64,000 nucleotides of DNA from Paractinoplanes atraurantiacus (GTDB lineage Bacteria; Actinomycetota; Actinomycetes; Mycobacteriales; Micromonosporaceae): assembly GCF_900215205.1 (NCBI RefSeq), contig NZ_OBDY01000004.1:230348-294347 (forward strand), written 5' to 3'. Under the pieces are notes generated by a model. It was not told the DNA's origin. It was given only the letters and a program-made list of their open reading frames with translations, and ran no database searches. Positions within the stretch are counted from its first letter, which is position 1; the number at the start of each line of letters is the position of its first letter. Positions 2,681 to 64,000 of the stretch are shown here, one piece after another. The position numbers were made by a program, and so were the translations under genes.

Positions 2681-5419
2681 GTGGCCACGGAGCGCAAGCG
2701 CCCGGTGATCAGCGACGGCCTGCCGAGCCAGCTTCCGGACATCGACCCCGAAGAAACGAACGAGTGGGTCGAGTCCCTCGACGGAGTCATCGACGAGCGG
2801 GGCGCCAAGAGAGCCCGTTACGTTATGTTGCGCCTGCTCGAGCGGGCGCGGGAGCGACAGGTCGGCATCCCGCCCCTGACCTCCACCGACTACGTCAACA
2901 CGATCACGCCCGAGCGCGAGCCGTGGTTCCCCGGTGACGAGTTCGTCGAGCGCCGCATCCGCGCCTACATCCGGTGGAACGCCGCGATGCTGGTGCACCG
3001 CGCGCAGCGCCCCGAGATCGGCGTCGGCGGCCACATCTCGACGTACGCGTCGAGCGCCAGCCTCTACGAGGTCGGCATGAACCACTTCTTCCGCGGCAAG
3101 GACCACCCGGGCGGCGGCGACCACATCTTCTTCCAGGGCCACGCCTCCCCCGGCATGTACGCCCGGGCCTACATGGAGGGCCGGCTCTCCGAGAACGACC
3201 TGGACGGCTTCCGGCAGGAGCTGTCGCACCCGGGTGGCGGCCTCCCGTCGTACCCGCACCCCCGCCTGATGCCCAACTTCTGGGAGTTCCCCACGGTCAG
3301 CATGGGCCTCGGCCCGCTGAACGCGATCTACCAGGCGCGGTACAACCGTTACCTGCACAACCGCGGCATCAAGGACACCAGCCAGCAGCACACCTGGGCG
3401 TTCCTGGGCGACGGCGAGATGGACGAGGTCGAGTCGCTCGGCGCGATCGGCCTGGCCGCCCGCGAGGAGCTCGACAACCTCACCTTCGTCATCAACTGCA
3501 ACCTGCAGCGTCTCGACGGCCCGGTGCGGGGCAACGGCAAGATCATCCAGCAGCTGGAGTCGTTCTTCCGCGGCGCCGGCTGGAACGTCATCAAGGTCGT
3601 CTGGGGCCGCGAGTGGGACCCGCTGCTCGCCGCCGACAGCGACGGCGCGCTGGTCAACCTCATGAACGTCACGCCCGACGGTGACTACCAGACCTACAAG
3701 GGCGAGTCCGGCGCGTACGTGCGTGAGCACTTCTTCGGCCGTGACCCGCGCACCCGCAAGCTGGTCGAGCACCTGTCGGACGACGAGATCTGGAACCTCA
3801 AGCGCGGCGGCCACGACTACCGCAAGCTGTACGCGGCGTACAAGGCGGCCATGGAGCACACCGGCCAGCCGACCGTGATCCTCGCCAAGACGATCAAGGG
3901 CTGGACGCTGGGCTCGCACTTCGAGGCGCGCAACGCGACCCACCAGATGAAGAAGCTGACCCTGGACGACCTCAAGGGCTTCCGGGACCGGCTCTACCTC
4001 GACATCAGCGACAAGCAGCTCGAGGACAACCCGTACCTCCCGCCGTACTACCACCCCGGCGAGAAGTCCGACGAGATGCAGTACATGCTGGAGCGCCGGC
4101 GCGAGCTCGGCGGTTCGATCCCGAGTCGCCGTACGAAGGGAAAGATCCTCCAGATCCCCGACTCGAAGGCGTTCGGCGACGTCAAGCGGGGCAGCGGCAA
4201 GCAGAAGATCGCCACCACGATGGCCTTCGTGCGCCTGCTCAAGGACCTCATGAAGGACAAGGAGTTCGGCGCCCGGTGGGTGCCGATCATCCCGGACGAG
4301 GCCCGCACGTTCGGCATGGACTCGCTCTTCCCGACCAAGAAGATCTACAACCCGCACGGCCAGACCTACACGTCGGTCGACCGGGAGCTCTTCCTGTCGT
4401 ACAAGGAGGCGACCAACGGCCAGATCCTGCACGAGGGGATCAACGAGGCCGGGTCGACCGCGAGCTTCATCGCCGCCGGCACGTCGTACGCGACGCACGA
4501 CGAGCCGATGATCCCGCTGTACATCTTCTACTCGATGTTCGGCTTCCAGCGGACCGCCGACGAGTTCTGGGCGGCCGCCGACCAGATGACCCGCGGCTTC
4601 CTGCTCGGCGCCACCGCCGGCCGCACCACGCTCAACGGTGAGGGCCTGCAGCACGAGGACGGCCACTCGCTGCTGATCGCGGCGACGAACCCGGCCGTCG
4701 TGGCCTACGACCCGGCGTACGCGTTCGAGATCGCGCACATCGTCGAGGACGGCCTGCACCGCATGTACGGCGAGAAGCAGGAGAACGTCTTCTACTACCT
4801 CACCGTCTACAACGAGCCGGCCATCCAGCCGGCCGAGCCGGCCAACCTCGACCGGGAGGGCCTACTCAAGGGCATCTACCGGTACGCCGAGGCGCCGCAG
4901 ACCACCGGCGCCAAGGCCCAGCTGCTGGCCTCCGGCACCGGCCTGCCCTGGGCTCTCAAGGCCCAGCAGCTGCTGGCCGAGGACTGGGGCGTGTCGGCCG
5001 ACGTCTGGTCGGTGACCTCGTGGACCGAGCTGCGCCGCGACGCCATCGAGGCCGAGGAGCACAACCTGCTCAACCCCGGTGACCAGCCGCGCAAGCCGTA
5101 CATCCAGGAGAAGCTGGAAGGCACCGACGGACCGGTCGTCGCGGTCAGCGACTACATGCGGGCCGTGCCCGACCTGATCTCGCGCTGGGTGCCGAACGAC
5201 TACACGTCGCTGGGCACCGACGGCTTCGGCATGAGCGACACGCGGCACGCGCTGCGCCGCCACTTCCACGTGGACGGCGAGTCGGTCGCGGTGGCCACGC
5301 TGCGCCAGCTCGCGCTGCGCGGCAAGGTGCCGTCGCACGTTCCGGCCGAGGCGGCCAAGAAGTACGCGATCGACGACGTGAACGCGGCGCCGGTCGGCGA
5401 GACCGGCGGCGACAGCTAA
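2681..5419 (+). CDS. aceE: Pyruvate dehydrogenase E1 component, homodimeric AceE type
   Basis: The 912-residue product matches the single-chain (homodimeric) E1 of the pyruvate dehydrogenase complex, which decarboxylates pyruvate with thiamine diphosphate and passes the acetyl group to the lipoyl E2. The thiamine-binding GDG motif ([12 protein letters not shown]) is near residue 244, followed by the N of [11 protein letters not shown]. The N-terminal [10 protein letters not shown] and the [11 protein letters not shown] segment are typical of actinobacterial AceE. The GTG at 2681 is chosen because an AGAGGA ribosome site sits six bases upstream; an ATG at 2675 is in frame but overlaps that site. 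No E2 or E3 gene is adjacent, as is usual in actinobacteria. A strong hairpin follows the stop codon. In Streptomyces aceE also lies near the fab operon, so this is conserved neighbourhood (from memory). Confidence 0.97.
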
Positions 5420-5432
5420 AGCCGATCTTTGA

Positions 5433-5466
5433 GAGCCGGACCATCCCGTACGGGGTGGTCCGGCTC
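5433..5466 (+). terminator. Hairpin terminator after aceE
   Basis: GAGCCGGACCA (5433-5443) pairs perfectly with TGGTCCGGCTC (5456-5466). The intervening CCCGTACGGG can extend the stem almost to the tip. There is no T-run, which is common for actinobacterial terminators. It lies between aceE and the chemoreceptor gene and probably separates their transcripts. Confidence 0.75.
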
Positions 5467-5510
5467 AGTCGTTCCCGGAACGTGCCGATGGGTACGGAGT
5501 GGGACGCGGC

Positions 5511-7622
5511 ATGCAGATCAGTCACAAGCTCCTCGCTCTGGGCCTGGGCGGGGTGATCGGCACCGCCGGCGTCCTCGTGCTGGTGGGCGCCTGGAAGAGC
5601 GGCGATTTCGCCGAGAGCACCGAGACGCAGGTGGTCGCACAGAACGAGGCGAACCTGAAACAGATCACCAGTGACGTCACCACGCTGGTGTCGTCGGTCG
5701 GTGACGAGGTGCAGAACAGCGTCGACGTCTCGATGAACGCCGCCGACAAGCTGCTGGCCCTGCGCGGCGGCGTCTCCTTCTCGGACCGGACCGCGACCTG
5801 GACCGCCACCAACCAGGTCACGAGCGCCAAGACGTCGGTCACGCTGCCCCGGATGCTGGTCGGCGGCACCTGGCTCGGGCAGAACAAGAACCTGAAGGTC
5901 ACCACGCCCTTCGTGGACGACGCGGCGTCGGTCTCGGGCGCCGTGGTCACCATCTTCCAGCGCATGAACACCGCCGGCGACCTGCTGCGGGTGGGCACGA
6001 CCGTCAAGGCGGCCAGCGGCAGCCGGGCCATCGGCACTTACATCCCGGCCACCTCGGACGGCAAGGCGAACGCCGTGGCCGCCGCCATCAAGTCCGGCAA
6101 GTCGTACCGGGGCGTGGCCAAGGTGGTCGACACCTGGTACATCACGGCCTACGACCCGATCAAGGACGCCTCGGGCGCGGTGGTCGGCTCCCTGTTCGCC
6201 GGCATCCCGCAGACGGACGCGCTGGAGAACCTGACGGCGGCGGTCTCCGCGGGCTCGTTCGGCCAGAACGGCTGGGCCACCGTCTTCAGCACCTCGGCGG
6301 CCGACGCGGGCCGGGTCGTCGCCTCCAGCATCGAGGGCGCCACCGACAGCGTCACCATCGACTCGGCCGACGCGAACGGCGCCAAGTACGTGTCGGAGAT
6401 CGTGGCCAAGGCGCCGACCCTGGAGGACGACGCGACCTGGACCACGACCTACAAGCTGCCGGGCTCGTCGGGGGCCGAGGCCGGGTCGACCACCACCACT
6501 GTCGCCTATTACGCGCCGTATTCGTGGGCCATCGCGATCGGCGGCTACGACGCCGACTCGGCCGGGCCGATCAACGCGGTCCGCGACGGCCGCCGGACGA
6601 TGCTGGTGGCTTTCGTGATCGCGGCGATCCTGCTCGCGGTGGTCGGCGGCCTGGTGGCGGCGACCATGGCCCGGCGCATCGCGGGCCGGCTGGCCGGTCT
6701 GACCGGCGGCCTGGCCCGGCTGGCCAAGCGGGACCTGACCGTTGTCGTGCCGGTCGACGGCAAGGACGAGATCGCGGTCGCCTCGGCCGAGCTGAACACC
6801 GCCGTGGGTGAGCTGCGCACGGTGATGGTCGAGGTCACCGCCGCCTCGCACGAGGTGGCCGGCACGGCCCGGCAGGTGGCCGCGACCGGTGGCGAGTTGG
6901 CCGGCTCGGCCGACGAGGCGGCCACCCGGGCCGGGCACGTCAACGTGGCCGCCGAGGGCGTCTCGCACGTCGTGCAGACGGTCGCGGCCGGCGCCGAGGA
7001 GATGGGCGCGTCGATCTCCGAGATCTCGAACAACGCCCAGGACGCGGCCCAGGCCGGCCGGGACGGCGTCGGGCTGACCGCGGCCGCGGCCGGCGTCATC
7101 GGCGAGCTGCGCACCTCGACCGCGGCCATCGCCGACGTGGTGCGGCTGATCGCGAGCATCGCCGAGCAGACCAACCTGCTGGCCCTGAACGCGACGATCG
7201 AGGCGGCCCGGGCCGGTGAGACCGGCAAGGGCTTCGCGGTGGTCGCGGGCGAGGTCAAGGAGCTTGCGCAGGAGACCGCGCGGGCCACCGAGGACGTGAC
7301 CTCGCGGGTGCAGGCGATCGAGAGCGACACCAGCCGGGCGGTCGACGCGATCGAGGCCATCACGGCCCGGATCGCGCAGGTGAACGACTATCAGACGGCG
7401 ATCGCGGCCGCGGTCGAGGAGCAGGCCGCGACCACGGCCGAGATGGCGCGCAACATCTCCGAGGTCGCCTCCGGCAGCCGGGACATCGCCGAGGGCATCG
7501 GCGTGGTCAGCGGCGCGGTCGACGGCACCCGGGCGTCGGTGGCGGTGTCGCACCAGGCGGCCGACGAGCTCGACGCGACCGCCCGCAAGCTGACCGGCCT
7601 GGTCGACCGCTTCACCGTGTAG
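5511..7622 (+). CDS. Methyl-accepting chemotaxis protein with Cache-type sensor
   Basis: The 703-residue protein has a first membrane helix at about residues 8-28, an extracytoplasmic sensor region of roughly 330 residues resembling Cache folds (including a [20 protein letters not shown] segment), and a second helix at about 363-386. A HAMP linker and a signalling domain follow, with the hallmark hairpin-tip region [19 protein letters not shown] at about residue 552. It would relay an external signal to CheA/CheW. No che or flagellar genes are in this window. The ATG at 5511 is favoured because GGAGTGGGA lies just upstream; a GTG at 5499 is also in frame. Chemoreceptors in this kind of actinobacterium fit motile zoospores (inference). 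The C-terminus ends shortly after the signalling domain, without a CheR-tethering pentapeptide. Confidence 0.93.
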
Positions 7623-23745: not shown

Positions 23746-23946
23746 ACGAGGATTCTCTCCCCACCGGGCGATGTGAACAGCGAGTGCGAGACAACTCACG
23801 TTGAGCGCAAGGGCCGAAAGTCCCGACCGGCGGACCCGGGAGCCGATTTCATGATCCGGCTGGAACTGGCAATTCGGTCGATCACGAGTGATGCTTATTA
23901 CCCGTGGGTACTACGGGGCGGCGGTAGATCCCCCGGAGGTGCCCCG

Positions 23947-24879
23947 ATGCCTGAGCTCACCCTCAGCGACGGCGTGACCCTGCACGTCGAGATCCACGGT
24001 GAGGCCGACGCCCCGGCCACCGTCGTGCTCGTGCACGGCTGGTGCCTCGATCGGCGCACGTGGCGCCAGCAGGTCACCGCCTTGAAGCGTCTCGGACGGC
24101 GCTCCCCACGGGTGATCACTTACGACGCGCGGGGGCACGGGCGCTCCGGCGCGACCGAGCTCGGCGGCGCCACTCTGGGCCGGCTCGGCGAGGATTTGGC
24201 CGAGGTCATTCGGGTGTACGCCCCCAGTGGCCCCGTCATTCTCGCCGGGCACTCGATGGGCGGGATGACGATCATGGAGTACGCCCACGCGTACCCCGAA
24301 GAATTCGCCGGCCGAGTGGCCGGCCTTCTTTTCGTCTCGACCACCGCCGAGGGACACACCCACACCCGGTACGGCCTGCCGCCCCAGCTGGCCACCCTGA
24401 TGCGGGCCGGCGAGGTGCTCGGTGCCGGCCTCCTGGCCCGGTCCGGCCCGTGGGCGCCGCACCGGCTCCTGCTGCCGGCGTTGCGCCCGGCCGTGCGCTG
24501 GCTGCTGTTCGGCGACGACCTCGACGACCACGCCCTGCAGGTGACGATGCGCTGCGTCGGCCGCACGTCGCTGCGCTCGATCGGCGGCTTCCGGGCGTCG
24601 ATCGGCGCCCAGCAGCGCCTGGACACGCTGGCGGCACTCGCCGGCGTCCCGGCCTCGGTCCTGGTCGGCGAACGCGACCGCCTGACCCCACCGGCCTGCG
24701 CCGAGTCGATCGCCGCGGCCCTACCCGGCGCCACCCTGACCGTCCTCCCCGGCGCCGGTCACATGCTCACCCTGGAACGCCCCGACGACGTCTCGGCCGC
24801 CTTGACCGCGATCGTCCGCCGGGCTACACGCACCCGCCGCCCCCGCCGCGTCACCAACCGCCTCGACCAGGCGGCATAG
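23947..24879 (+). CDS. Alpha/beta hydrolase
   Basis: The 310-residue protein has the oxyanion segment VHGWCLDRRTW, the nucleophile elbow GHSMGG with Ser103, an acidic residue in VLVGERDRLTPP and the catalytic His in PGAGHMLTLERP. A helical cap lies between. The substrate is unknown; esterase, lipase or epoxide-type activities are all possible. GGAGGTG precedes the ATG at 23947. The C-terminus is Arg-rich (RRATRTRRPRRVTNR), which may be a membrane-surface or nucleic-acid contact, or simply a tail. Confidence 0.9.
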   Translation: MPELTLSDGVTLHVEIHGEADAPATVVLVHGWCLDRRTWRQQVTALKRLGRRSPRVITYDARGHGRSGATELGGATLGRLGEDLAEVIRVYAPSGPVILAGHSMGGMTIMEYAHAYPEEFAGRVAGLLFVSTTAEGHTHTRYGLPPQLATLMRAGEVLGAGLLARSGPWAPHRLLLPALRPAVRWLLFGDDLDDHALQVTMRCVGRTSLRSIGGFRASIGAQQRLDTLAALAGVPASVLVGERDRLTPPACAESIAAALPGATLTVLPGAGHMLTLERPDDVSAALTAIVRRATRTRRPRRVTNRLDQAA

Positions 24880-48041: not shown

Positions 48042-48404
48042 TTACGATTCTGTCGGATGATCGGCATCCGCGGGCTTCGTATCGCCTTTCACGATTTCAG
48101 CTTTCGGGGTCTCGCCGTTCGGGGTCTCGCCCTTCGAGCTGTACGAGCGGTACGCCAGCCAGAGCGCGAAGACCGCGGCCACCGCGGCGGCCACACTGGA
48201 CAGTTGGTCGGCCAGGCTCGTGCCGAGCGCCGCCACGAAGACGACCACGGTGAGCAGCACGAGCATCACCAGCAGGGCCGTACGCCACCAGCCCGGCAGC
48301 GACAGCTCGGGAAGCTTCTTGCGCAGCAGGTAGACGCCGGTCTCGATCAGAATGATGGCGGCGGTCACCACGATGCAGATCTGCCACGCCTCGATGCCGC
48401 TCAT
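48042..48404 (-). CDS. Small membrane protein in the solute-binding-protein operon
   Basis: The 120-residue protein has about three membrane helices (WQICIVVTAAIILIETGVYLL, TALLVMLVLLTVVVFVAAL and a third near VAAAVAAVFALWLAY). A hydrophilic C-terminal tail of short GET(P/N) repeats ends in DADHPTES. Its ATG overlaps the stop of the upstream gene (ATGA). No family was recognised. It could anchor or signal for the exported binding protein. Confidence 0.75.
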   Translation of the reverse strand: MSGIEAWQICIVVTAAIILIETGVYLLRKKLPELSLPGWWRTALLVMLVLLTVVVFVAALGTSLADQLSSVAAAVAAVFALWLAYRSYSSKGETPNGETPKAEIVKGDTKPADADHPTES

Positions 48405-49588
48405 CGCAGCTTCCCCTGGATGTCGGTGATGAACTGCTGGGTGAGCTGCTCGCCGTCGTACAGGAACCGGTGCATGTGCCCGGCGAACGTCTCGGCGAAC
48501 GCCGCGTAGTCGCGGTGCATGGGCCGCGGCCGCGACGACTCCACCCCGTTCCGGATGACCTTGAGGTGCGGCATCGTCTCGGTCACGACCGGGTCGATGT
48601 ACGCGTCGAGGCCGGTGGGCGCGAAGCCGTACTTGGCCAGCAGCAGTTGGGCATGCGCGTCGGTGAGGAAATGGATGGCCTCCACGGCCTCGTCGCGATG
48701 GTCGCTGTCGGCCGACACGGCGAGGCTCTGCCCGCCGATGATGCCGATCGGCAGGCGGCCCAGGCGGATCTCGTCGGTGGTCGGCTTGGTGCGCTCGGCC
48801 CGGTCGATCGCCGGGTAGTAGACCGGCCAGTTGCGCATGTAGCGAAGGCCGTTGCGCTGGTACGTGCGGTTGGTGTCGTCCTCGCCGGCCTCGGCCCCGA
48901 CACGGCGGCCCCGGATGGCGGCGGCCAGCGGGCCGAGCGCCGATCGCCACTGGCCGAGGCTGAAGGACAGCTGCCCGGTCTCGTCGAGGATCGCCTCGTC
49001 CTGCGCCAGCGCCTGCTCGAGCACGTTGACCAGGAACGCCTCGTCGGTCTGCGAGCCGACCGTGTCGAGCTGGCCGACGAAGCCGCGCGAGCTGCTCGAC
49101 ATGACCTGGGCCAGCGTCGGGTCGGGGCCGGCCTCGGACTTGTCGGCGATGCGCCGGTAGAGCACGCCGACGTCGGTGTTGAACGGCACCGCCCAGAAGT
49201 CGCCGGTGTCCTCGCGCACGCTCAGCCGCCGCACCGGCGGCAGCAGCGAGATGTCGTTGCGCGGGGTGATCGGCACGACCCTTTTCTCGGCCGCGAACTT
49301 GGGGATGTGGATGACGTCGAGGTTGAAGATGTCGGCCCGGCTGGAGATGAATTTCTCGTACTGGTCCCGGGTCGAGCTGTTGATCTCAACCGTTTCGATC
49401 TTGATGTACGGGCTGAGGTCGTTCCACATCTGCACCAGCAGCCGCCGCCCGCCGGTGGCGTCGGCGCCGGTGACCAGCGTCAGCTTGACCTCCTCACGAC
49501 GGGTCAACAGGTAGCTGGCCGAGGCCGACACCATGCCGGCTGTGAGCGCCCCGGCCAGAAACGACCGTCGTGAGTAGAGCTCCGTCAT
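48401..49588 (-). CDS. Tat-type exported extracellular solute-binding protein
   Basis: The 395-residue protein starts with a twin-arginine-like segment (YSRRSFLAGALTAGMVSASASYLL) without a lipobox Cys. The fold of ABC family 1 (sugar-type) binding proteins follows, with segments such as FWAVPFNTDVGVLYRRIADKS and EAIHFLTDAHAQLLLAKYGFAPTG. No permease or ATPase gene is near. It is followed, by overlapping codons, by a small membrane protein. It may therefore work as a sensor or receptor rather than a transporter component (inference). Confidence 0.85.
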   Translation of the reverse strand: MTELYSRRSFLAGALTAGMVSASASYLLTRREEVKLTLVTGADATGGRRLLVQMWNDLSPYIKIETVEINSSTRDQYEKFISSRADIFNLDVIHIPKFAAEKRVVPITPRNDISLLPPVRRLSVREDTGDFWAVPFNTDVGVLYRRIADKSEAGPDPTLAQVMSSSSRGFVGQLDTVGSQTDEAFLVNVLEQALAQDEAILDETGQLSFSLGQWRSALGPLAAAIRGRRVGAEAGEDDTNRTYQRNGLRYMRNWPVYYPAIDRAERTKPTTDEIRLGRLPIGIIGGQSLAVSADSDHRDEAVEAIHFLTDAHAQLLLAKYGFAPTGLDAYIDPVVTETMPHLKVIRNGVESSRPRPMHRDYAAFAETFAGHMHRFLYDGEQLTQQFITDIQGKLR

Positions 49589-60190: not shown

Positions 60191-61324
60191 GTGAACAGTC
60201 GTCTCGCCGGCCGCCTCGGCGGCATCATCCTCACCGCTGCCGCCGCTCTGGCCGCCACGCTGGCCGGGCCGGCCACCGCGGTCGCCGCCGACCCGGGGGC
60301 GCCGCTCAAGGTGATGCCGCTCGGTGACTCGATCACGTGGGGCAGCGGCAGCGCGGACTCGCGGGTCGGCAACCGGACCGGTGCGCTCACGGCCAGCGGC
60401 TACCGCATCGACTTGCGGGAGCGGCTCGAAGCCGCCGGCATGGACGTGGACTTCGTCGGCTCCCGGCAGGCCGGCCCGGCCGGGACGGACCGCGACAACG
60501 AAGGCCACCCCGGCTGGCGCATCGACCAGATCGCCGCGAATGTCGACGGCTGGCTCGACACCTATCAGCCCGACGTGATCCTGCTGCACATCGGCACCAA
60601 CGACATGGCACAGAACCGGAGTGTCGACGCTTCGGCCGCCGGCCTGTCCGCGCTGATCGACCAGATCCGCGCCGCCCGCCCGGCCGCCGACCTCTTCGTG
60701 CAGCAGCTCGTCCAGGGCCACATCGAGCCGTACAAGAGCCGGATCGCCGCCTACAACAAGACGATCCCCGGCATCGTGGCCGGCAAGGACGCCAAAGTCC
60801 ACCTGGTCGACCAGTCGTCGATCGGCGGCCTGTCCCTGTTCGACAACCTGCACCCCAACGACGACGGCTACGCCAAGATGGCCTTCAACCTCTACCAGGC
60901 CATGGCCGAGGTCCACGCCGGCTACAGCACGCGGCCCACCGGCACCGACCCGTACGCCGCCACCTCCGCCACCCTCTGCTTCCGCATCAACAAGACCGTC
61001 GCGGGCAAGCAGACCTGGCACGCCGAGTGCAGCCCATGGACGCTGCGCACGGTGTGGCAGCGCCCCGACATCGCTCCCGAGCACTACCTGGTCTACGTCA
61101 AGCCGCACTACACCACCAAGAAGGTCCACGGAACGGCCAAGGTCTGGATCAAGGGCCGATACATCAAGACCAAGAAGACCCGGGTGTGGGCGAAGCCCCA
61201 CTACGAGACCCGGAAGGTCATCAAGACCGTCAGGGTCTTGATCGCGGCCCACTATGAGACCCGCACGCGCATCGTCGCCACGTGGCTGTCCGACGACCCG
61301 TACCTAACGAACGCCAAGAAATAG
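60191..61324 (+). CDS. Secreted SGNH/GDSL esterase with basic repeat tail
   Basis: The 377-residue protein has a signal peptide (RLAGRLGGIILTAAAALAATLAGPATAVAA). An SGNH hydrolase domain follows, with the nucleophile Ser47 in PLGDSITWG, the Gly block, the Asn of HIGTNDMAQN and the Asp/His pair in FDNLHPNDDG. The last about 80 residues are different: Lys/Tyr/Trp-rich with repeated KPHY-T-KKV / KPHYETRKV / AAHYETRTR units. This tail may bind cell wall or polyanions. GTG 60191 is the likely start; a longer frame upstream lacks a signal. Confidence 0.87.
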   Translation: MNSRLAGRLGGIILTAAAALAATLAGPATAVAADPGAPLKVMPLGDSITWGSGSADSRVGNRTGALTASGYRIDLRERLEAAGMDVDFVGSRQAGPAGTDRDNEGHPGWRIDQIAANVDGWLDTYQPDVILLHIGTNDMAQNRSVDASAAGLSALIDQIRAARPAADLFVQQLVQGHIEPYKSRIAAYNKTIPGIVAGKDAKVHLVDQSSIGGLSLFDNLHPNDDGYAKMAFNLYQAMAEVHAGYSTRPTGTDPYAATSATLCFRINKTVAGKQTWHAECSPWTLRTVWQRPDIAPEHYLVYVKPHYTTKKVHGTAKVWIKGRYIKTKKTRVWAKPHYETRKVIKTVRVLIAAHYETRTRIVATWLSDDPYLTNAKK

Positions 61325-61339
61325 CACCGTGAGGTACTT

Positions 61340-61355
61340 TGGTACTTCGGTACCA
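61340..61355. promoter_or_regulatory. Palindrome upstream of the antitoxin-like gene
   Basis: TGGTAC and GTACCA form a perfect inverted repeat around TTCG, with another GGTAC just upstream, 16 bases before the start of the antitoxin-like gene. Such sites are typical for autoregulation by ribbon-helix-helix or AbrB antitoxins. Confidence 0.55.
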
Positions 61356-61371
61356 CGCACGGGAGGATGTC

Positions 61372-61659
61372 ATGGCTGCGTCTGCTCCGATCAAGGTCGA
61401 TGTCGACACCGACCAGCTGATCTCCCACGCTGCGCACTTCCTGGGCAAAGCGAAAAAGGACGTCGTTGAGGCAGCTGTTCGCGAGTACATCGAAGCCCAC
61501 CGCGATGAGATCAACGAAGGCGTCCGGGCAGCCCTTGCGCAATTGGACGGCTCGTCAGCCTCCGCCATCTCGCTGCTTACCGACATACCGGTCGACCAAC
61601 TCGAGGAGTACGGTGGGATGCCCGCGCCCGGTGACGACCCCCTGCCGACGCGCAGGTGA
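61372..61659 (+). CDS. Antitoxin-like small protein (VapB/RHH style)
   Basis: The 95-residue protein starts after GGGAGGATGTC. Its first 50 residues (IKVDVDTDQLISHAAHFLGKAKKDVVEAAVREYIEAHR) have the strand-helix-helix pattern of ribbon-helix-helix DNA-binding antitoxins. The C-terminal half is acidic and flexible, as is usual for toxin-binding tails. A palindrome upstream supports autoregulation. No recognised PIN or other toxin follows. The next gene encodes an unrecognised 258-residue protein. Base composition is less GC-rich than the surroundings. Confidence 0.68.
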   Translation: MAASAPIKVDVDTDQLISHAAHFLGKAKKDVVEAAVREYIEAHRDEINEGVRAALAQLDGSSASAISLLTDIPVDQLEEYGGMPAPGDDPLPTRR

Positions 61660-61754
61660 TCCGCAGCTGACGATCAGCCGGATCCGGCTTGGATCCTGAT
61701 CATCGCGCACACGCCGTCCGCCACCCTTCTAGAACTCTCCCTATGCTTTGGCCG

Positions 61755-62531
61755 ATGAGCGGTGAGCCCTCTCCCGTCCGGCCGACCCGAGCCGCCCTGA
61801 CGGATCTTGATCTACCTGTTCCCCCGATCAGCGAATCCCTGTGCAAACTTGATCATCCATTGGTCCGTGAGGCCCAACGGCTACCCGAAACCTATGCGGC
61901 CGGAGGCGCCGAGAGAGTCCTCGCCCTCAGAGATCGCGTGTGGTTCAAGGTCAAGACAAGGCGGTGGCGGGGCGCTTCGACCCGCCTGCCCGAGGCTGAT
62001 CGCCTGGATGCGCGGGCCCAGGTCAGGCGGGCACCCTGGTGGCTCGGCGCCGCTGGGTATCGACGTGAGGGTGATCCGAGTGACTTCTACACCGCGCTGG
62101 CGTCCGCATGGGCCCGCGCCGGGGGCGACTCCCGCCAGTGGCTTCCGTCCGATTGGGACTGGAAGCGGATGGAACTCGAGGACGCGTATGGCTGGGAGTT
62201 CCGAATACGAGAAATCGTTCGCGAGCTGATCGGACGATCGATTCGCACCGGCCACCCCTATCAGGCGGAGTTTCACCATTACCGCGTGACCGCGCTCGCT
62301 CGTGCTCGCGGCGAGGAGACTTACCTCATCATCGGTACGGAGAACGTAGCCGACCCCAGAGTATTCGCCATCATTCTCAACGCCGTGCCCGGCGTGGAAC
62401 ACGACAGTTGGCTACCAGAGCCGAGCGAGGTCGTCGGCGTCCATCCCGGGCCGGGCGAAGTCGTCTGGTCAACGGTGTTGCCACTGAACGTAGTAGCCGA
62501 ACTGCTCGACGCCGCTCCAGACGAGGACTAG
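61755..62531 (+). CDS. Unrecognised protein, 258 aa, atypical composition
   Basis: The codon use includes many AT-ending codons (GAT, CTT, AAA, CCA, ATT), unlike the neighbours, so it was probably acquired. The protein is Trp/Arg-rich in its middle (DFYTALASAWARAGG, WLPSDWDWKRMELEDAYGWEFRIREIVREL). It has an alpha/beta end (LIIGTENVADPRVFAIILNAVPG). No membrane helix and no catalytic motif recognised. It lies 95 bases after the antitoxin-like gene and about 120 bases from the 3' end of a tRNA gene. ATG 61755 is taken as start; 61743 is an alternative. Confidence 0.7.
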   Translation: MSGEPSPVRPTRAALTDLDLPVPPISESLCKLDHPLVREAQRLPETYAAGGAERVLALRDRVWFKVKTRRWRGASTRLPEADRLDARAQVRRAPWWLGAAGYRREGDPSDFYTALASAWARAGGDSRQWLPSDWDWKRMELEDAYGWEFRIREIVRELIGRSIRTGHPYQAEFHHYRVTALARARGEETYLIIGTENVADPRVFAIILNAVPGVEHDSWLPEPSEVVGVHPGPGEVVWSTVLPLNVVAELLDAAPDED

Positions 62532-62654
62532 GCAAGTGAGGCCGGTTGAAGTGGCCGCCGGGTCGAGCCCCAGCCACCCGCCACCTGGCGCCGGGCCGCC
62601 GAAGGGCGACCACGACACCGTGGGGTCCGGGGGTCGCCCCCGGAGTAGGTACGG

Positions 62655-62728
62655 TGGGGCGGGCGGGACTCGAACCCGCGACCGAGGGATTATGAGTCCC
62701 CTGCTCTAACCCACTGAGCTACCGCCCC
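62655..62728 (-). tRNA. tRNA with CAU anticodon (tRNA-Met elongator or tRNA-Ile2)
   Basis: The minus strand folds into a perfect cloverleaf of 74 nucleotides. It has a 7-bp acceptor stem GGGGCGG/CCGCCCC, a D arm with AGTGGGTTA, an anticodon stem GGGGA/TCCCT with loop CTCATAA (anticodon CAT), variable loop CGGTC and T arm GCGGG-TTCGAGT-CCCGC. CCA is not encoded. The CAU anticodon means either elongator methionine or, after lysidine modification, isoleucine (AUA). It is not an initiator, since the first acceptor pair is a normal G-C and the anticodon stem lacks the three GC pairs of initiators. Confidence 0.96.
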
Positions 62729-62799
62729 TTACCGGCGGCGATCCTAACCCGTGGGCCCTGTTCACAGCCAGCGATCTCCCGAGCTTATGCAGCGCTGCA

Positions 62800-64000
62800 T
62801 CATCGGGCGGCTCCGACGCCCGCGCCCAGCCAGGACAGGACGGCGCCGGCCGTGCGCCAGCCGCCGGCCAGGGCGCCCTGGATCGACGGGCTGTCGCGGT
62901 GGTCGCCGGCCACGAAGAGGCCGTCGCCCAGGTCGACCGGCTTGCGGAGATTGGCCTGCGGCACGCGGGCCGACGGGAGGGCGTTGGGGATGCTGATCAC
63001 TTCGAGCAGGTCCCAGTCGTCGGTCGGGGTGCCGTAGAGGCGGGCCAGCTCGACCCTGATCACCGCCTCGGAGGCGCTGGACGGGGCCGAGACGCCGACG
63101 ACCGAGGCCGCAATCAGGGATTTGCCGGTCGGCGCGTATTCGGGGGCCGCGTTGCTGACCACCACCGTGTTGGCGATGATCTCGCGGCGGTCGCCGTCGA
63201 GGACCAGTGTGGGCTCGTCGAGCGGGGCCTTGTCGGCGCCGAAGTAGAACGTGGTCAGGCCGTGCATGTCCGGCACCGGCAGCCGGCCGGGCAGCAGGGC
63301 CGCCGCCGCGGGCGGGTCCGTCGCGACGATTACGGCGCGGCAGTTGATCTGGCCGCCTTCGGTGACGACCATGCCGGGGCCGATGGACAGGGTTCGGGCG
63401 CCGATCAACAGCTGGGGGTACGGCAGTGGGCCCGCGATCGCCGCCGGGAACGCGGCCATGCCCGCGGCCGGCACGCCCATCCGCCCTCGCGCGAACGAGC
63501 GCAGGATCATGGCGAAGACGTGGCTCGACGTGTCCAGCGAGCGGTCGCCGAAGACGCCGGACAGGAACGGCCGCAGGACCTCTTCGATCATGCGGTGGGA
63601 CATGCCCGCCTTGCGGAGGAACTCCTGCGTGGTCGTCTCGCGCGCCTCCAGCAGTTTGGCCGCCGGCACTGTCGCGCATTTGGTGGCCAGCGCGGCGAAC
63701 TTCAGCCGGTCGCTGAGCGTGCCCACCCCGGAGGTCAGCGCCTGCGCCGCGGCCAGCGGGTCACGGGCCGGGTTTTCCAGGCGGTGCAGGTCTCCCCCGC
63801 GCCGCACCAGCACGCCGGGCGTGAAGTAGCGCATGTCGAGGGCGGCCACGTCGACCAGGGCCGGCACCCGCGGATAGGCCGTGTTGAGGATCTGGAAGCC
63901 GCGATCGAGGTGCCATCCGTCGACGGTGTCGGTGGTGACGCGGCCGCCGATGCGGTCGGACGCCTCGACCAGCAGCCACTCCACGCCGGCCCGATCAAGG
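62800..64000 (-). CDS. FAD-dependent amine oxidase-like oxidoreductase (5' end outside window)
   Basis: The visible 399 residues begin within the FAD-binding region (EWLLVEASDRIGGRVTTDTVDGWHLDRGFQILN). They continue with a helical substrate domain (RKAGMSHRMIEEVLRPFLSGVFGDRSL) and end with the flavin-binding GLFVAGDHRDSPSIQGALAGGWRTAGAVL. This is the pattern of the amine oxidase / protoporphyrinogen oxidase / phytoene desaturase-like superfamily. The N-terminal GxGxxG and start codon lie beyond base 64000. The substrate is unknown. Confidence 0.9.
   Translation of the reverse strand, partial: LDRAGVEWLLVEASDRIGGRVTTDTVDGWHLDRGFQILNTAYPRVPALVDVAALDMRYFTPGVLVRRGGDLHRLENPARDPLAAAQALTSGVGTLSDRLKFAALATKCATVPAAKLLEARETTTQEFLRKAGMSHRMIEEVLRPFLSGVFGDRSLDTSSHVFAMILRSFARGRMGVPAAGMAAFPAAIAGPLPYPQLLIGARTLSIGPGMVVTEGGQINCRAVIVATDPPAAAALLPGRLPVPDMHGLTTFYFGADKAPLDEPTLVLDGDRREIIANTVVVSNAAPEYAPTGKSLIAASVVGVSAPSSASEAVIRVELARLYGTPTDDWDLLEVISIPNALPSARVPQANLRKPVDLGDGLFVAGDHRDSPSIQGALAGGWRTAGAVLSWLGAGVGAAR

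Follow-up and report, generated by a model that had tools for sequence, protein, structure and literature searches.

RelB, the antitoxin of the RelBE systems, is a protein of the ribbon-helix-helix (RHH) type. With regard to its partner, the toxin RelE from Escherichia coli, the residues R61, R81 and Y87 have been described as critical, K52 and K54 being less so (PMC2807027), and the equivalent residues of RelE1 from Mycobacterium tuberculosis, R65, R85 and Y89, as needed for activity (PMC12620021), both according to the parts of these reports considered here. The superfamily was surveyed in 2025, the compared parts of that survey covering 13 Pfam families as well as multidomain proteins found from them (PMC11980606). 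The present study concerns two adjacent genes, coding for proteins of 95 and 258 residues, in a stretch of 64,000 nucleotides—hereafter the window—from the 10.9-Mb genome of Paractinoplanes atraurantiacus (contig NZ_OBDY01000004.1, positions 230,348 to 294,347). The pair very probably forms a toxin-antitoxin module of type II, and the best explanation of the locus is likely to be an operon of an RHH antitoxin and a two-domain RNase toxin with a RelE-like fold; the two genes are therefore referred to below as the antitoxin and the toxin gene. The features, given in window positions, are the following:

61333-61354, no strand: putative operator with three GTAC half-sites in an 8-bp register, GGTAC-TTTG-GTAC-TTCG-GTACC (upstream conservation)
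61361-61366, forward strand: Shine-Dalgarno-like GGGAGG of the antitoxin gene (read off the sequence)
61372-61659, forward strand: antitoxin gene, 95 residues, with an RHH-like N-terminus and a C-terminal tail with an invariant Gly-Gly
61755-62531, forward strand: toxin gene, 258 residues, two domains (open reading frame, family alignment and AlphaFold2 model)
61755-62138, forward strand: toxin N-domain, residues 1-128, with a predicted RelE-like fold, the proposed RNase domain (AlphaFold2 and fold searches)
61947-62090, forward strand: codons of the proposed active-site residues K65, K67, R72, R103 and Y112 (invariance and comparison with RelE)
62151-62528, forward strand: toxin C-domain, residues 133-258 (AlphaFold2)
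62653-62728, reverse strand: tRNA with the CAT anticodon (tRNA-Met), its 3' end facing the pair (ARAGORN)

Pairing of the two genes and conservation of the operator

The two open reading frames (ORFs) are separated by 95 bases. With the 258-residue protein as the query against 200 genomes of the family, 17 genomes gave a match, the 21 rows comprising 18 places of the main family—one of them filling two rows—and two places of a remote branch. The 95-residue protein, scanned independently against the same genomes, gave a match in 20 of them; it was found directly upstream at all 18 main-family toxin places, and the matches in the three genomes with the small protein alone were weak and partial (E 1e-4 to 6e-3). 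When 84,980 species genomes were scanned by pattern for the 258-residue protein, 50 stretches were obtained, 31 of which were confirmed as relatives and 19 not; a small RHH gene lies directly upstream on the same strand in each of the 31 confirmed loci, nine of which come from metagenome assemblies. Judged by their record titles, they belong to Actinomycetota. The preliminary description of this DNA had regarded the pairing as doubtful should the two genes never occur together elsewhere, and their joint presence in all 31 confirmed loci and at all 18 main-family places speaks for the pairing. The locus thus has the adjacent, co-directional and co-occurring genes of a type II toxin-antitoxin system, along with an upstream operator and, as far as the sequence suggests, a small DNA-binding antitoxin.

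In a sample of the phylum, the toxin was found in six of 396 genomes, the own genome included, a count that may be low since six candidates were scored per genome; the toxin is in two pieces in G392 and G439, which, like the other loci newly met in that scan, do not enter the counts over 45 loci given below. The distances within the two partner families co-vary over 36 loci (r 0.84, a value reached by none of 2000 permutations), although shared host ancestry can also raise such a correlation. All 36 intact toxins, the full-length copy of the window being one, are each accompanied by an open antitoxin. The toxin is broken and the antitoxin open in eight of the 45 loci (L045, L047, L048, L070-L073 and L011), the reverse occurs in none, and both genes are broken in one (L017). 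It should be noted that the toxin gene has roughly three times the length of the antitoxin gene, which makes the excess of broken toxins weak evidence for the toxin-antitoxin reading, and that some of the broken copies belong to metagenome assemblies (L070, L071 and L073), that of L071 also meeting a contig end. As a separate observation, the toxin N-domain in L073 (1954-2442) runs in frame into a tail that by eye looks like a RelB-like antitoxin, perhaps by recombination with another module; no Pfam match was seen in this stretch at E 0.01.

The mean pairwise identity is 57% for the antitoxin and 44% for the toxin. Many antitoxins, by contrast, are not better conserved than their toxins, and the difference is what one would see if the pair were an ordinary regulator with a regulated, non-toxic RNA-binding or RNA-processing protein rather than an addiction module. 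Such a pair would hardly be expected to show the patchy spread (17 of 200 family and six of 396 phylum genomes) and the compact cassette, nor the toxin-superfamily fold and the exchanged DNA-binding partner described below, and we consider this explanation very unlikely.

Concerning the upstream region, the motif GTAC-N4-GTAC precedes the antitoxin start in 38 of the 45 loci, the copy of the window included, as compared with nine of 3828 background windows taken from these loci. It is missing upstream in L006, L011, L013, L017, L019, L069 and L071. Other spacings of GTAC are 6 (in two loci), 11 (in one) and 12 (in eight, by the third repeat), no pair at the spacings 0-3, 5 and 7-10 being present in the 45 upstream regions. 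L006 and L011 form a sub-branch with a divergent antitoxin (36% and 31% identity) and without the GTAC operator. The window itself contains two occurrences of the motif in 64 kb, both at the operator, with 0.18 expected and two reached in 2 of 100 shuffles; the palindrome pointed out in the preliminary description is made up of three GTAC repeats 8 bp apart (61334-61353).

The comparison with seven relatives over 61000-62800 places the start of homology exactly at 61333 in five of them and at 61370-61375 in two, and its end 19 to 58 bases short of the end of the toxin gene. These bounds indicate that the shared unit consists of the operator and the two genes, which is presumably also the unit that moves. 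A scan of 12 genomes for the operator revealed 62 sites, 13 at toxin-antitoxin loci and 49 elsewhere; as the pattern read backwards gave 39, no wider GTAC-N4-GTAC regulon is apparent in these genomes. Owing to its conserved operator, the module can readily be located and tested.

With regard to the antitoxin, the protein of the window matches PSK_trans_fac (E 0.0016) and VapB (E 0.011) in Pfam and a RelB-like family in NCBIfam (E 0.012), in each case below the cut-off. Over the family, at E <= 0.01, PSK_trans_fac is matched by 27 and VapB_antitoxin by 16 of 43 members, and the family profile gives a weak match to two solved CopG-family regulators among the PDB sequences (E 0.019 and 0.095). 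The RHH assignment, originally proposed for the window protein, is therefore weak for that protein and better for the family as a whole. The best PDB row for the same profile, a CAP repeat (E 1.2e-5), was rejected as a chance match with no single stretch passing, and the Toxin B rows (E about 0.05) were likewise taken as chance.

The predicted fold and the proposed active site of the 258-residue protein

The 258-residue protein, previously called unknown, has indeed no family match in Pfam, NCBIfam, PHROGs or PADLOC; tblastn against plasmids and phages gave nothing, and none of its 48 pattern matches in viral contigs was confirmed. The 36 full-length members of the toxin family give scattered weak matches to unrelated Pfam models (best E 0.0034, in one member), and the designed armadillo repeats found in the PDB with the toxin profile (best E 1.3e-4) were discarded as chance, no single stretch passing. 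A structure search had also been suggested in the preliminary description. AlphaFold2 predicts a two-domain model for the whole toxin with a mean predicted local distance difference test (pLDDT) value of 92.5 and a predicted template modelling score (pTM) of 0.83, the values for residues 1-128 alone being 86.9 and 0.79.

For residues 1-128 alone, Foldseek places entries titled RelE, HigB or toxin-antitoxin in all of its first 13 rows. In the VIA comparison of the same model, 46 of the 50 listed rows are titled as toxins of the superfamily or as Cami1, the remaining four being two Helicobacter proteins titled hypothetical, which we presume to be toxins of the RelE-superfamily kind, and two others; the best row is RelE1 from M. 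tuberculosis (Z 6.2, root-mean-square deviation 2.8, 77 of 84 residues). With the whole model, the first VIA row is RelE2 from the same species (Z 5.4, root-mean-square deviation 3.0, 78 of 87 residues), tied within 1 Z with rows covering the other half of the protein, and the N-terminal half is covered by four of the 50 listed rows, all of them RelE or HigB. The weight of the fold evidence thus lies in the uniformity of the VIA list and not in single scores: the predicted N-domain resembles the RelE/ParE (BECR) fold, no row being individually significant.

The invariant residues in the first half of the 36 full-length members are M1, R9, P10, T11, P23, L29, R54, D60, F64, K65, V66, K67, R72, W96, G101, R103, D110 and Y112. 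The segments F64-K65-V66-K67, R72, G101-Y-R103 and Y112 follow the same order as Y51-K52-I53-K54, R61, G79-K80-R81 and Y87 in E. coli RelE, so that the conserved basic residues and the tyrosine of the RelE mRNA interferases are found in order in 36 of 36 members. The register was taken from the ends of the structural alignments rather than from a residue-by-residue superposition: model residues 105 and 108 correspond to RelE 83 and 86, and 107 to RelE1 89, which would put R103 on R81 of RelE and R85 of RelE1 if the last segment is free of gaps. The match of Y112 to Y87 would be a positional one, where the last helix begins, the tyrosine standing nine residues past the arginine here and six in RelE.

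Several results weigh against the RelE-like assignment and have to be set beside these. None of the 36 members matches a RelE-superfamily Pfam model at E 1, including those of the 13 families named in the compared parts of the survey (PMC11980606; E <= 1), and hhalign of the N-domain with the alignments of the RelE-type PF05016 (27 rows, E. coli RelE included) and Gp49 PF05973 (29 rows) gave no match, the probability being below 1%. The best Foldseek E for residues 1-128 is 0.077, with no row significant by itself; beyond rank 13 most rows are unrelated, the RelE-type ones amounting to 16 of the 50 listed, and Foldseek with the whole model returned nothing significant and no RelE row among the 50 listed. 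VIA merely re-ranks the 475 candidates of Foldseek, 97 of them with a Z of 2 or more, and its best Z of 6.2 stays under the caution line of 8, below which a score may reflect a common arrangement. As for the residues, one row of E. coli RelE (4fxh, 109 = 88) is one residue off register, and in the remote branch the position of R103 holds Arg in one of five members and that of K65 Lys in three of five.

This remote branch was met as weak matches in L020 (1393-2397) and L021 (1012-2061), which code for proteins of 334 and 349 residues with N-terminal homology of 62 and 57 bits; over five remote members, 331 to 349 residues long, the homology to the 258-residue family ranges from 43 to 62 bits. 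A C-terminal DUF3039 was found by profile in L020, the one of the two scanned for it, and by annotation in three plasmid copies. Directly upstream of these genes in L020 and L021 lies a gene for a 131-residue HTH_17 protein. Relatives of L020 occur on five plasmids of Rhodococcus and Prescottella, and the three plasmid loci that were opened (L203 2992-3987, L204 2989-3984 and L205 2986-3993) have a gene annotated as helix-turn-helix (HTH) or excisionase-type directly upstream, which brings the loci with such a partner to five of the five remote ones examined. R72 and Y112 are kept in all five and the position of K67 is basic in all five, GTAC-N4-GTAC being absent, as judged by eye, from their 150 upstream bases. 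These pairs, chromosomal and plasmid-borne, are probably toxin-antitoxin pairs as well, and the HTH partner implies one toxin core with two unrelated DNA-binding partners; the exchange of partners is known for toxin-antitoxin families.

Toxins of the ParE type are also matched by the fold search with comparable Z (3kxe, 5czf and 6xrw), RHH antitoxins are usual for ParE, and the C-domain could redirect the target, all of which would suit a toxin that acts, in spite of its RelE fold, in a ParE-like manner on DNA gyrase or on some other target and not as an RNase. The invariant K-x-K, R, G-x-R and Y, however, are situated in the strands and the helix that are catalytic in RelE, where a gyrase inhibitor would not be expected to keep them, and R72 and Y112 are retained also in the five remote members; the ParE-like alternative is accordingly rated as unlikely.

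In the type II operon with a RelE-fold RNase, which we favour, the 95-residue RHH protein would bind the GTAC-N4-GTAC operator and repress the operon, whereas its C-terminal tail would cover and inhibit the toxin. In the toxin, a RelE-fold RNase comprising residues 1-128 would be joined to the second domain, residues 133-258. Freed by loss of the antitoxin, the toxin might cut RNA—most probably mRNA located in the A site of the ribosome—with R72, R103 and Y112 in the roles of R61, R81 and Y87 of RelE. The antitoxin, for which the preliminary description recognised no toxin, would on this reading have it in the neighbouring protein. The suggestion made there of an undescribed toxin-antitoxin system with an unusually large toxin agrees with the co-occurrence, the operator and the toxin-like fold, but a new type need not be invoked, the module fitting type II.

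The C-domain model comprises a long helix, a three-strand meander and further predicted elements. Used alone as the query in the 200 genomes, with 21 candidates scored per genome, it was found at 18 places in 17 genomes, all of them toxin places. No convincing fold for it emerged from the whole-model searches (best Z 5.1) or the viral models. On the Kyte-Doolittle scale, the highest mean over 19 residues reaches 1.43 for the protein of the window and ranges from 0.87 to 1.23 for four further members, and no transmembrane segment of the ToxM kind is seen between the two domains. The C-domain might help to bind the target, the ribosome or the antitoxin. A more speculative, rather doubtful proposal is that it represents a sensor or targeting module, making the protein a RelE-core defence effector directed at a particular RNA or set off by a particular trigger, such as a structured RNA or a phage product, with the RHH or HTH antitoxin being exchangeable.

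Neighbouring tRNA genes and base composition

As had been recognised from the sequence, both genes lie beyond the 3' end of a CAU tRNA, the only one found by ARAGORN, with 121 bases between it and the toxin stop. The tRNA scans cover 44 loci, L017 being left out, and the pair lies at most 1 kb from a tRNA in seven of them, always on its 3' side: the window (Met), L044 and L045 (Arg-ccg), L005 (Arg-acg), L052 and L053 (Leu-tag) and L064 (Ser-gga). The seven are a lower bound, because some loci meet a contig end less than 1 kb from the pair; since L044 and L045 have orthologous neighbourhoods, and L052 and L053 likewise, they correspond to about five independent cases. Three more tRNAs are found at 2 to 5 kb, in L043 on the 5' side and in L046 and L054 on the 3' side.

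The tRNA-Met of the window and the amine oxidase gene are near each other in all 60 genomes of the genus, the own one included. Further copies of the tRNA-Met 3' end occur elsewhere in 13 of the 60, in 11 of them on the same contig within 60 kb, and this recurrence identifies the locus as a site of integration within the genus. Duplication of the tRNA 3' end as an attachment (att) site was seen in one of eight other loci tested: in L064 an att-flanked remnant (3818-6322) is situated at the tRNA-Ser, the 3' end being repeated at 6281-6322 (93% over 45 bases), and the interval contains the pair together with an ORF that by eye reads like fragments of a relaxase and a tyrosine recombinase. Around the pair of the window no such duplication exists, a second copy of the tRNA end being absent from the window. 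A clean empty tRNA-Met site, as had been proposed for comparison, was not discernible in any of 20 flanks, which were 4.1 to 7.4 kb long, since the lipase gene was found in none of them and the flank is variable. Tyrosine integrases were scanned for in 16 genomes, and among the own-genome matches listed (six of nine) none lies on the contig of the window. In three genomes of the same genus, at L181 (177-1028), L179 (104-1720) and L188 (95-2042), part of the 3' end of the tRNA-Met is repeated at a very short distance, the stretches in between measuring about 0.8 to 1.9 kb and resembling minimal left-overs of integrated elements.

The base composition of the pair stands out, in line with the preliminary description. 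The bin 61001-62000 has the lowest GC content (63.0%) of the 64 1-kb bins of the window; the GC content is 63.2% for the antitoxin gene and 64.7% for the toxin gene, and the GC content at third codon positions (GC3) is 0.75 and 0.71, respectively, as compared with a mean of 0.909 (standard deviation 0.055) for 42 window ORFs, a reference mean that is raised by the choice of ORFs whose GC3 exceeds that at second positions by 0.2. The low GC is common to the relatives, 46 of 50 toxin pieces lying below the GC of their own locus, and the case that the preliminary description named as refuting, a known unrelated enzyme family with normal codon use in relatives, is thus not what they show.

The low GC next to a tRNA at which elements integrate in the genus, the att-flanked remnant in one relative and the broken toxins in nine of the 45 loci all recall the island proposed earlier, of which the pair would be a decayed left-over of excision without present function. 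The frames in the window are nevertheless of full length, the invariant residues and the operator are intact and the second tRNA-end copy is not in the window, which renders a functionless remnant highly improbable, even though the integration of elements at this site retains its support from the recurring tRNA ends and from L064. On the toxin-antitoxin reading, the pair would travel as a compact cassette, at times carried along by elements with tRNA genes as their integration sites.

The neighbours of the pair, a GDSL lipase gene and a flavin amine oxidase gene, show no sign of a relation to it. In the C-terminal part of the lipase ORF (window 60960-61320), outside the lipase domain, Lys, His and Tyr are abundant and a KPHY-like motif recurs. 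Two other window ORFs, 48056-48506 (GC3 0.72) and 23913-24531 (GC3 0.76), are possible further foreign genes.

Relation to described systems

A literature search, in the mostly open-access papers it covered, revealed no recognised description of the 258-residue family. The family would add to a well-studied superfamily a toxin that the profile libraries consulted here miss, with a second domain and two unrelated kinds of DNA-binding partner. By implication, proteins of unknown function may conceal further toxins of the RelE type, and the DUF3039 proteins encoded next to HTH genes on plasmids of actinobacteria become candidates for toxins. The pairs of HTH and DUF3039 proteins share with the 258-residue family a homologous N-terminal part, but their proteins are 331 to 349 residues long, the partner is of the HTH type and no GTAC-N4-GTAC is seen by eye upstream. 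The antitoxins of the VapB and Rv0623-like (PSK_trans_fac) kind show a weak profile similarity in the RHH part, although the window antitoxin remains under both cut-offs and the 36 partner toxins match no PIN-domain model.

RelBE, represented by RelE from E. coli and by RelE1 and RelE2 from M. tuberculosis, resembles the present pair in the antitoxin gene coming first, in an antitoxin of the RHH type, in the predicted RelE-like fold of the N-domain and in the order of K-x-K, R, G-x-R and Y; it differs in the size of the toxin (258 residues here as compared with 95), in the second domain found here and in that the present toxin has neither a RelE-superfamily Pfam match nor a profile match to PF05016 or PF05973. 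To our knowledge, Cami1, the CARF-RelE effector of type III CRISPR systems, has no antitoxin gene. It is likewise a RelE domain fused to another one and occurs in the list of fold matches (8phb, Z 6.1), but its partner domain is a CARF sensor, switched on by a cyclic nucleotide according to the part of the source used here (PMC11229360), whereas the present toxin has its RelE-like domain at the N-terminus and an adjacent antitoxin gene. Finally, in ToxM-ToxR (Gerdes 2025, PMC11980606), an N-terminal RelE-fold domain is likewise followed by a C-terminal domain, with an RHH or HTH antitoxin upstream; ToxM possesses a transmembrane segment and a periplasmic domain, such a segment being absent here, and yet, within the compared parts of that survey, ToxM-ToxR is the nearest architecture to the pair described in this study.

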